Assembly (NCBI GenBank): GCA_020718085.1
Contig: DYDB01000002.1
Span: 1 to 52,349, forward strand
From: Micavibrio sp.
Lineage (GTDB): Bacteria; Patescibacteriota; Minisyncoccia; Moranbacterales; GCA-2747515
Length of the DNA stretch: 52,349 nucleotides
Direction of reading: 5' to 3'
Part shown: positions 3,142 to 5,756 of the stretch, one piece after another
Position numbering within the stretch: position 1 is the stretch's first letter
Layout: the number at the start of each line of letters is the position of its first letter
The notes under the pieces: model-generated
What the model was told of the DNA's origin: nothing
What the model saw: the letters and a program-made list of their open reading frames with translations, nothing else
The model's database searches: none
Translations under genes and position numbers: made by a program

Positions 3142-3690
3142 ATGAAAAAAATTGTATTTGTAACAGGCAACCAAAACAAAGCAGATTATTTGGCGAAGTA
3201 CCTTGATCATCCGATTGATCACAAGAAAATTGATCTGGACGAGATCCAGTCTCTCGATCTGAAGGAGATTGTTGAACATAAAGTACGACAAGCGTACAGA
3301 GAAATGAAAAAACCTGTCATTGTGGAGGATACATCTCTAGAATTCAAAGCATTGGGAGGATTGCCTGGTCCATTCATACGGTTTTTTGTTGATCATATGG
3401 ACTTCCAGACAATTTGCTCACTGCTCAATGGAAAAGATCGCACGGCTTATGCAAAATGTGCTATTGGGTTTTTTGATGGGAAAACGATAAAGATTTTTGA
3501 GAAAACACTTTCTGGACAAATCGCTAAAAAACCGTCCGGCAAAAATGGTTTTGGGTGGGATAAAATTTTTATTCCCAAGGGATATTCTGTAACGCGAGCA
3601 TCTCTCAGTGAAGCGGACGATCAAAAAACATATTTAAAACTTAAACCATTTTCTCAGTTGAAAAAATTTTTAAATGAGATCGCAATATAA
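3142..3690 (+). CDS. RdgB/HAM1-family non-canonical purine NTP pyrophosphatase
   Basis: A protein of 182 residues from the ATG at 3142; the in-frame GTG at 3130 only adds MKFC and is less likely. The family fold is clear. The N-terminus IVFVTGNQNKADYL matches the TGN-x2-K phosphate loop, VEDTSLEFKALGGLPGPF matches the EDTGL-ALGG-PG active-site region, and NGFGWDKIFIPKGY matches the GFGYDPIF motif. The enzyme hydrolyses ITP, XTP and dITP to monophosphates and so cleans the nucleotide pool. The canonical SHR near the C-terminus is not evident, so specificity may differ. The gene is alone between the smpB promoter region and the leuA leader. Confidence 0.88.
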   Translation: MKKIVFVTGNQNKADYLAKYLDHPIDHKKIDLDEIQSLDLKEIVEHKVRQAYREMKKPVIVEDTSLEFKALGGLPGPFIRFFVDHMDFQTICSLLNGKDRTAYAKCAIGFFDGKTIKIFEKTLSGQIAKKPSGKNGFGWDKIFIPKGYSVTRASLSEADDQKTYLKLKPFSQLKKFLNEIAI

Positions 3691-3715
3691 AACTGGGATT
3701 GTAAGAGTTTATAAG

Positions 3716-3743
3716 TTGACAATCCTTATATTTTTGCTATGAT
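3716..3743 (+). promoter_or_regulatory. Promoter of the leuA leader transcript
   Basis: A perfect TTGACA (3716-3721) and a TATGAT (3738-3743) are separated by 16 bp. Initiation about 7 nt past the -10 falls at about 3750, exactly the A of the first leader-peptide ATG, so that message would be leaderless. Confidence 0.85.
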
Positions 3744-3749
3744 TGCGTC

Positions 3750-3821
3750 ATGAAATATCATGCAACACAAAACCTGCTAGCTCTGCTACTCCTCGTTGAG
3801 GAAGGTTTTTGTGTTGGGTAA
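3750..3821 (+). CDS. Leucine-rich leader peptide 1 of the leuA attenuator
   Basis: A 23-residue open frame: MKYHATQ, then NLLALLLL, then VEEGFCVG. Six of seven consecutive codons (3774-3794) are Leu (CTG CTA, GCT for Ala, CTG CTA CTC CTC). It starts at the predicted transcription start with no ribosome-binding site. It ends at TAA 3819-3821, 38 nt before a terminator hairpin. Its final codons contain TGTTGGG (3812-3818), which can pair with the left arm of that terminator (3860-3866) with two G-U pairs. Such a layout is the signature of ribosome-mediated leucine attenuation. It resembles leader 2 at 3902. Confidence 0.85.
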   Translation: MKYHATQNLLALLLLVEEGFCVG

Positions 3822-3859
3822 ATGTTTTAAAGATAATATAAGACAAAACATTGATACCG

Positions 3860-3880
3860 CCTGACACTGTCAGGTTTTTT
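3860..3880 (+). terminator. Attenuator terminator 1 of leuA
   Basis: CCTGAC (3860-3865) pairs with GTCAGG (3869-3874), followed by six T (3875-3880). The left arm can instead pair with TGTTGGG inside the end of leader peptide 1, giving a mutually exclusive antiterminator. Confidence 0.85.
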
Positions 3881-3901
3881 GTTTGTCTAGACAGATTTTT
3901 T

Positions 3902-3976
3902 ATGAAACATCATTTTGTACAAAAATTGCATAAATGGTTGCCGCTCCTGCTGAGCGTATGTTTTTGTGTCGAGTGA
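3902..3976 (+). CDS. Leucine-rich leader peptide 2 of the leuA attenuator
   Basis: A 24-residue open frame: MKHHFVQKLHKW, then LPLLL, then SVCFCVE, ending in TGA at 3974-3976. It has five Leu codons, four of them within 3938-3952. It aligns with leader 1 (MK-x-H start, Q, a Leu block, then V-x2-x-FCV before the stop), so the two look like a duplication. Its last codons hold TGTCGAG (3967-3973), a perfect complement of CTCGACA (4007-4013), the left arm of terminator 2. No promoter or ribosome-binding site is obvious before it, so it is probably reached only when terminator 1 is read through. Confidence 0.8.
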   Translation: MKHHFVQKLHKWLPLLLSVCFCVE

Positions 3977-4005
3977 CGTTTTCACAAAGTTTTGTGGTAA
4001 TGGAG

Positions 4006-4030
4006 GCTCGACAGAAATGTTGAGCTTTTT
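4006..4030 (+). terminator. Attenuator terminator 2 of leuA
   Basis: GCTCGACA (4006-4013) pairs with TGTTGAGC (4018-4025) around a GAAA loop with one G-U pair, followed by five T (4026-4030). The same left arm is perfectly complementary to TGTCGAG at the end of leader peptide 2. Confidence 0.8.
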
Positions 4031-4088
4031 GGTTCGTTAACAACTGAAGGAAAAATAAGATACCTGAAAAATGAAAGGAGTGTGTGAG

Positions 4089-5714
4089 ATGGGAAAGAAA
4101 AAAGTTTGGTTGAATGATGTGACATTGCGTGAAGCTGCACAAGTGGATGGTGGTGCAATCACGCCTGCAGATCAAGATGCGTATGTGCGGAAAATCGTAC
4201 GAGGGGGCATTGATTGTATCGAAATTGGTTTTCCAGGGAGTGCCAAAGGCAATCCGAAGCGATGTCGAGAGATCGTTGATCTGGTACGGAATATGAGATT
4301 TGGTCATAAACCGATCCTCTCGGGATTGGCTCGCGCCGTGAAAGAAGACATTGATGCCGTTGCTGATGCTGGGTGTGATATGGTGCATATTTACATACCG
4401 GCAAGCGATGAACTCATGTCTGCGCAATTTGACACAAATAAGTATGGCGATACGCCGGAAGGAAAAAGGGTGTGGGCGATCGATACTGCAGTGGCAATGG
4501 TGCGTTATGCACGAGAAGTGAAAGGTTTCAAACATGTGCAATTCTCACCGGAAGATTCAGCGCGTGCTGGACGGGAGTATGTGTGCAGAATTACAGAGGC
4601 AGTCATTGACGCCGGTGCGACGAGTGTGGACCTACCAGATACAACAGGTTTGAACATCCTTAATGAATATGGGAATTTCATTGCATATGTATTTGCACAT
4701 GTGCCAAATATTCATAAAGTGCGTGTTGCATGTCATTGTCACAATGACAGTGATCATAGCACAACGAATGCCTTACAAGGAGTTCTTGCGGGCGTTACAG
4801 AAGTGCAGGGCACATTCTACGGACTGGGTGAGCGCAGTGGCATGACAAAGTTTGAATCTGTGATCATGAACATGCATACGCGCCAAGACATCTTTGGTGA
4901 CTATGTGATCCGATTTGATCCTGTGATGGTTGTGGAGATCGTGCACATGATCGCAAATTGTCTTGGTATGCCGGTACCGCGGCATTGGGTTGTTGTGGGA
5001 GAACAAAATTGCATATGCAGTTCTGGTACACATCAGGCAATTGAAGAGAAGGCGAAGAAAAATGGTGTAACCGTAAGCCCGTACTATAGTTGGGATCCTG
5101 CAAAATATGGACATGTTGGGGTAAAGACTGTGGTGACACAATTTTCAGGTAGAGAGGGTATCTCAGCTAAACTCAAAGAGCTGGGTTTTGCTGTAAAAAA
5201 AGATCAACTCATAGAGATCATGGCGGAAATCAAGCGTATTTCTGAGGGTCGTCGAGGCACATCTTTGGGTGATCGGGAAATCGTGGCTGTTGTTACGGAT
5301 GTGATCAAGGAAGTGCCATGTAGCATTGAAATTATTCATTCAACAATTGTGAGTGGCAAAGGTACAATTCCAACGGCATCTATTATTGCATCATCCGATG
5401 GTAGAAAAGAAACTGCTGTGTGTGTCGGCAATGGTCCGGTGAGTGCGGCATTTGATGCAGTTGTTACGATTGCAAAGGAGCTCTTCCCGCAATTGCAAAA
5501 ATACACGATCGTACAGGAATATTGGCGTCCCATACAGGTGACAAAGGGTGATGAGGCGCTTGGAGATGTGTATGTGCAGCTGAAAATGACGCATAATGTT
5601 ATTTCCGGTAGGGAGCATATTCACAGCGGACATGCCGTGCACGAAGATTCAATTCATGCAACAGCACAAGCAATTGCAAATGCGATCAGTTGGATGGTTG
5701 CATCTATTCAGTAA
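4089..5714 (+). CDS. leuA: 2-isopropylmalate synthase (LeuA family)
   Basis: A protein of 541 residues from the ATG at 4089, chosen because AAAGGAG (4074-4080) lies 8 nt upstream; the ATG at 4071 is part of that ribosome-binding site. The N-terminal HMGL-type TIM barrel has NDVTLRE (residues 9-15), the metal-binding HCHND (216-220) and GLGER (245-249). The C-terminal part has the LeuA dimer/regulatory features (VSGKGTIPTASI, VGNGPVSAAFDAV). The family condenses 2-oxo acids with acetyl-CoA; LeuA makes 2-isopropylmalate, the first committed step to leucine. The usual DGxQ after TLR is replaced by EAAQ, so homocitrate- or citramalate-type chemistry is possible from the protein alone. The Leu-specific double attenuator in front strongly supports the leucine branch. 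No leuBCD genes are in the window. Confidence 0.9.
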   Translation: MGKKKVWLNDVTLREAAQVDGGAITPADQDAYVRKIVRGGIDCIEIGFPGSAKGNPKRCREIVDLVRNMRFGHKPILSGLARAVKEDIDAVADAGCDMVHIYIPASDELMSAQFDTNKYGDTPEGKRVWAIDTAVAMVRYAREVKGFKHVQFSPEDSARAGREYVCRITEAVIDAGATSVDLPDTTGLNILNEYGNFIAYVFAHVPNIHKVRVACHCHNDSDHSTTNALQGVLAGVTEVQGTFYGLGERSGMTKFESVIMNMHTRQDIFGDYVIRFDPVMVVEIVHMIANCLGMPVPRHWVVVGEQNCICSSGTHQAIEEKAKKNGVTVSPYYSWDPAKYGHVGVKTVVTQFSGREGISAKLKELGFAVKKDQLIEIMAEIKRISEGRRGTSLGDREIVAVVTDVIKEVPCSIEIIHSTIVSGKGTIPTASIIASSDGRKETAVCVGNGPVSAAFDAVVTIAKELFPQLQKYTIVQEYWRPIQVTKGDEALGDVYVQLKMTHNVISGREHIHSGHAVHEDSIHATAQAIANAISWMVASIQ

Positions 5715-5723
5715 GTATAAACA

Positions 5724-5756
5724 AAAGGAGGTTTGTCACAATGACAAACCTCCTTT
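5724..5756 (+). terminator. Long hairpin after leuA
   Basis: A 15-bp perfect stem (5724-5738 with 5742-5756) with a 3-nt loop lies 10 nt after the leuA stop. The T-tail is weak. The left arm contains AAAGGAGG and the loop/right arm an in-frame ATG ACA AAC CTC CTT TAA, probably a coincidence of the stem sequence. Confidence 0.7.

Follow-up and report, generated by a model that had tools for sequence, protein, structure and literature searches.

Attenuation of transcription through translation of a leader peptide is a textbook mechanism. In the enterobacterial trp, leu and his attenuators, as in the actinobacterial leuL, ilvL and trpL leaders, a short open reading frame (ORF) with codons for the end product is combined with mutually exclusive antiterminator and terminator structures (PMC8079986, PMC1262725). 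The leuL peptides of Streptomyces lividans, encoded upstream of leuA and leuS, are leaderless (PMC8079986), and actinobacterial leuA leaders often have no terminator (PMC8079986, PMC1262725). The authors of a 2010 survey knew leader-peptide systems only from Proteobacteria and Actinobacteria, to which their survey added Firmicutes (PMC2965389). In the Salmonella mgtCBR leader, which has been called a singular example, two short ORFs each control transcription into the same operon, and these ORFs, mgtM and mgtP, answer different signals (ATP and proline) and lack typical intrinsic terminators (PMC3641672). Tandem T-boxes (PMC12452182) and tandem riboswitches (B. clausii metE being an example cited in PMC3641672) place repeated sensors before a single gene, in some cases each having its own terminator, and there the RNA itself senses tRNA or a metabolite directly.

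We analyzed a 52,349-nt stretch of DNA from a member of the Patescibacteriota (contig DYDB01000002.1), hereafter the window, in which a leuA-like gene is preceded by a leader of this general kind. Like the enterobacterial and actinobacterial attenuators, the leader combines ORFs bearing end-product codons with exclusive antiterminator and terminator pairings; it differs from them in having two complete modules in series, in belonging to a different phylum, in serving a solitary leuA whose genome lacks LeuB and LeuC, and in a two-strand switch in which the end of the peptide-coding sequence pairs directly with the left arm of the terminator. It shares with mgtCBR the presence of two short ORFs in one leader, but its copies are duplicates, both with Leu blocks and each with an intrinsic terminator. 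As in some tandem T-boxes and riboswitches, each repeated sensor has its terminator, whereas the proposed sensor here is the translating ribosome. A known Rfam element or T-box was rejected for the leader: no Rfam family, T-box or riboswitch reached the gathering score in the window, in which only chance-level matches (E > 1) occurred. The features of the locus are as follows.

3716-3743, + strand: sigma-70-like promoter (TTGACA 3716-3721, 16-nt spacer, TATGAT 3738-3743)
3750-3821, + strand: leader peptide ORF1, translation MKYHATQNLLALLLLVEEGFCVG*
3774-3794, + strand: Leu block of ORF1
3812-3819, + strand: antiterminator strand 1 (TGTTGGGT), pairing with the left arm of terminator 1
3859-3880, + strand: terminator 1 (GCCTGACAcTGTCAGGT at 3859-3875 plus a U-run), left arm 3859-3866, right arm 3868-3875
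3902-3976, + strand: leader peptide ORF2, translation MKHHFVQKLHKWLPLLLSVCFCVE*
3926, 3938, 3944, 3947 and 3950, + strand: Leu codons of ORF2
3967-3974, + strand: antiterminator strand 2 (TGTCGAGT), pairing with the left arm of terminator 2
4006-4030, + strand: terminator 2 (GCTCGACAgaaaTGTTGAGC at 4006-4025 plus UUUUU at 4026-4030), left arm 4006-4013, right arm 4018-4025
4074-4080, + strand: Shine-Dalgarno sequence of leuA, AAAGGAG (anti-SD duplex -8.4 kcal/mol)
4089-5714, + strand: leuA-like gene, with an HMGL-like domain and a LeuA_dimer regulatory domain (Pfam, over cut-off)
5724-5756, no strand assigned: perfect 15-bp inverted repeat (AAAGGAGGTTTGTCA/TGACAAACCTCCTTT) just past leuA

The two short Leu-block frames, which the initial annotation had described as related, are indeed homologous (DNA alignment z = 10 against shuffles; peptide p = 0.0005); an assembly duplicate was rejected because the module copies differ widely. 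A terminator follows each frame, as had been proposed; terminator 2 has a folding energy of -12.2 kcal/mol with its flanks and is absent from the terminator list under a stricter tail rule. The complementarity of each peptide end to the left arm of its own terminator proved slightly longer than claimed, with 8 bp in each module, TGTTGGGT (3812-3819) pairing with GCCTGACA (3859-3866) and TGTCGAGT (3967-3974) with GCTCGACA (4006-4013). Leucine accounts for 6 of the 23 residues of ORF1 and 5 of the 24 of ORF2, in clusters; considered by itself, this enrichment is modest (P = 0.005 and 0.026). The six Leu codons of ORF1 (CTG, CTA, CTG, CTA, CTC, CTC) are all of the kinds that make up 28% of Leu codons in eight genes of the window, CTT, TTG and TTA making up 72%; this bias to rare Leu codons is not shared by the leader of a related genome, G110.

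The promoter of the leader matches the consensus at 11 of 12 positions, and a TG precedes its -10 element. Since the gap between the -10 element and the ATG at 3750 is 6 nt, the same distance as in the G110, G013, G115 and G117 leaders, the transcript probably starts at or beside this AUG, and the leader peptide of ORF1 is likely to be leaderless, as is leuL in S. lividans. ORF2 has neither a Shine-Dalgarno sequence nor a promoter of its own within the leader; an own promoter was rejected as none was found in the promoter search, and the missing Shine-Dalgarno sequence is a caution only, because in many ORFs of the window the first possible start likewise has none in front of it. ORF2 would be translated without such a sequence. 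The most likely start of leuA is 4089, behind AAAGGAG, rather than the longer ORF start at 4071.

The best reading of these modules is classical leucine attenuation duplicated in tandem, with two ribosome-mediated transcription attenuators one after the other, each sensing charged tRNA-Leu, a prediction from sequence and computation to which we give a probability of about 0.85. With the RNA starting at or next to AUG 3750, the ribosome would probably load on its 5' end. When Leu-tRNA is plentiful, the ribosome would reach the ORF1 stop and cover strand 3812-3819, terminator 1 would fold, and RNA polymerase would halt near 3880. A ribosome stalled in the Leu block would instead leave strand 3812-3819 to pair with the left arm of terminator 1, and with this antiterminator formed the polymerase would enter module 2, where the choice would be repeated (3967-3974 with 4006-4013) with a stop near 4030. 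Because leuA mRNA would require passage of both modules, read-through should multiply; a steeper or tighter response from the tandem would be reasonable arithmetic, not a result.

Folding under a codon-by-codon ribosome mask of fixed footprint, in a simple equilibrium model rather than a kinetic simulation, placed the switch, for either copy, where the Leu block ends. Terminator 2 has a probability of about 0 while the ribosome sits on the Leu block, rising to 0.24 at L17 and to 0.96 from S18, and the exclusivity of antiterminator and terminator in module 2 is set cleanly by ribosome position. Sequestration of the left arm in module 1 amounts to 84-96% with the ribosome at L13-V16 and drops to 5% from E17, figures that apply while the right arm is still to be transcribed. 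At equilibrium terminator 1 prevails even with a stalled ribosome, the antiterminator being favored only transiently, and exclusivity here is kinetic only. Since terminator 1 prevails, module 1 must, under this model, work kinetically or be weak. With no ribosome both modules terminate, with a probability of 0.99 for module 1 and 0.91 for module 2. In seven leaders from other loci the switch falls at, close to or inside the Leu or Ile block, and roughly so in two more.

A search of 131 genomes of the order yielded one LeuA of the window's type besides the window's own (G110, 52% identity), and a class sample of 384 genomes yielded one more (G351, 50% identity); none was found in five congeners or in a phylum sample of 380 genomes, and the viral contigs searched held no relative. 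All genomes in the class and phylum samples measure about 0.4-1.5 Mb, in keeping with the Patescibacteria assignment of the initial annotation. G110, which holds the nearest LeuA relative, has one leader (MKHYMNQNLANLLLLQKESFCAG) at the same position, homologous to both window copies. Homologous leaders lacking the Leu blocks or the complementary strands, which by the initial annotation would refute the proposal, were sought, and this sole clear homologue keeps both, with the same pairing logic. At more distant synthase loci, Leu leaders were found in G013, G061, G123, G351 and G177, and Ile or Ile/Val leaders in G115, G117 and G322. The synthases of G115 and G117 were judged by eye to be citramalate-synthase-like (cimA-like), and the amino acid sensed agrees with the type of gene, Leu leaders standing before leuA types and Ile leaders before these cimA-like genes. 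With G110 included, nine other genomes of the class carry a single leader of this kind before a synthase gene. The automated upstream scan found one leader per leader-bearing genome and two only in the window. The one distant Clostridiales leuA found has no leader at its locus. A Cys-rich ORF before leuB of G312 lay below the pairing threshold (-6.4 kcal/mol) and was set aside; the G351 leader, which was accepted, also pairs weakly (-6.0 kcal/mol). Across the 384 class genomes, the DNA pattern of the leader peptide matched the window's two copies and G273, a match dismissed by eye as looking like chance, situated within coding sequence of the opposite strand.

Covariation, which the annotation had looked to as a check on both helices, was counted over modules 1 and 2 and the G110 leader, that is, over three sequences only, in a hand-made three-strand alignment biased towards structure, which was used because MAFFT put terminator 1 in the wrong place when aligning these leaders; slides and shuffles served as controls. 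Cells were paired in 100% for the antiterminator and 92% for the terminator, and pairs had changed on both sides in 2 and 4 cases, respectively, with none in any slid version. Compensating changes are present in both helices; column shuffles reach these values in 67/500 (antiterminator) and 16/500 (terminator) cases.

A Leu-rich frame and unrelated terminators might have come together by chance between two genes: the Leu enrichment is modest by itself, and the upstream gene, which ends at 3690 on the same strand as leuA, could use a downstream terminator. We scored modules with a detector that calls an ORF 12-40 codons long containing an amino-acid run, a terminator 12-60 nt past its stop, and a duplex of peptide end and left arm of -10 kcal/mol or lower; it was designed after seeing this leader, and its numbers are a guide. 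Only the two leader modules match strongly in the 52 kb on both strands, one further window ORF falling below the pairing threshold (-3.6 kcal/mol) and being set aside. Among 3000 dinucleotide-preserving shuffles of 3691-4088, 2 contained one module and 0 contained two. Over nine leaders from eight genomes, peptide ends pair better with their own arm than with the arms of other leaders (permutation p = 5e-5). Taken singly, module 2 is not significant against shuffled peptide ends (p = 0.27; 0.03 under another null) and module 1 gives p = 0.08-0.28; a definition of the arms restricted to the hairpin's own MFE pairs gave weak single p values. With the shuffles empty of double modules, a homologous leader at the same place in G110 and a switch at the Leu block in both copies, coincidence is the least credible explanation, and we regard it as extremely improbable.

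The ORFs could alternatively encode genuine small hydrophobic Leu-rich peptides, such as membrane peptides or a toxin-like pair, followed by ordinary terminators, and both peptides are in fact short, with a hydrophobic mid-part and a terminator after each. Such peptides would not account for a peptide-end strand that matches its own terminator arm, for folding that switches at the Leu block, for Ile-rich instead of Leu-rich leaders before cimA-like genes, or for leaders that always lie directly upstream of a Leu/Ile-pathway synthase, and this explanation appears highly unlikely. More serious, though still unlikely in our judgment, is that a single module is active and the other, either module 2 or module 1, is a decaying duplicate. 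The loss of the module 1 antiterminator at equilibrium, the lack of a Shine-Dalgarno sequence or own promoter for ORF2, and the G110 relative that manages with one module all point in this direction. Both copies, however, retain an intact ORF, Leu codons, a terminator and exact complementarity despite wide divergence, which counts against decay because decay would break these features first.

The LeuA protein conserves the HCHND and FSPED motifs, has TLRE in place of TLRD, and misses all NCBIfam LeuA equivalog cut-offs; it likely has isopropylmalate synthase activity, its substrate being uncertain because of the TLRE replacement and the missed cut-offs. TLRE[SA] for the usual TLRDG marks a divergent LeuA subfamily, seen in the window and at loci L005 and L007, in three genomes only among those searched, each of which lacks LeuC and LeuB. 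In the window's genome (98.6% complete), family searches, on which the absence of the pathway rests, gave no match to Iso_dh (LeuB family), IlvD or the aconitase family (LeuC), and the same searches were positive in 14 of 14 control genomes; leuA is thus an orphan there. Neither this nor the recurrence of single attenuators on synthase genes of relatives figured in the initial annotation. The LeuC family is also absent from G110, G351 and G013, and the leuA neighbors in G110 and G351 show, by eye, no sign of a leucine operon. The LeuB family is absent from all 10 leader genomes (G000, G013, G061, G110, G115, G117, G123, G177, G322 and G351; leader-bearing synthase loci L003, L005, L007-L011, L022 and L023). 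The two genomes with LeuB, G014 and G312, have no leader by automated scan at the leuA, leuB and leuC loci checked. This association of leaders with absence of LeuB (Fisher p = 0.015, 12 related genomes) is exploratory and uncorrected for phylogeny, with some of the genomes only 87-92% complete.

No report joining Patescibacteria, leader peptides and attenuation was found in the open-licence literature, which is weak evidence given that scope, and the open literature found contains no description of leader-peptide attenuators arranged in tandem for one and the same signal. Ribosome-mediated attenuation is apparently new to this phylum, and as far as the searched open literature goes the locus would be the first tandem of leader-peptide attenuators for one amino acid. 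If true, uncultured bacteria with small genomes would couple transcription to translation, probably using leader peptides that are leaderless. The recurrence of the switches on orphan synthases is a more surprising part than the tandem: the leaders label functionally genes that are seemingly useless without LeuB and LeuC yet would respond to Leu or Ile shortage, and since they would answer such shortage, these synthases probably serve amino-acid supply, perhaps by partner exchange. A tentative and rather doubtful extension is that, in reduced genomes of this group that lack the later pathway, orphan synthases of the committed step (isopropylmalate or citramalate synthase) have time and again acquired Leu/Ile attenuators, with starvation triggering production of an intermediate that is completed elsewhere or by an unrecognised alternative route. 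For example, the intermediate might be exported to a host or partner, bypassing its feedback-inhibited first step, and the amino acid taken back; such exchange as the reason for leucine control without LeuB and LeuC is speculative. If it holds, the tandem would represent the tightest form of this arrangement.

Several minor observations concern the neighboring genes and relatives. On the minus strand of loci L010 and L011, citramalate-synthase-like genes are preceded by leader peptides rich in Ile/Val, MQKIVLKIIEIISIVIIGRQFFVRVCI and MQKIVKKIIGFISIVIIRRKFFTLVCA, with a terminator and with a promoter at a distance of 6 nt from the ATG. In G123, a genome without a LeuB-family gene, contig C12:6920-10006 (L009, L012) carries two synthase-like genes in tandem on the same strand, behind one Leu leader. 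The inverted repeat at 5724-5756 is probably the terminator of leuA, which would therefore be monocistronic; the repeat also has a AAAGGAGG core resembling a Shine-Dalgarno sequence.
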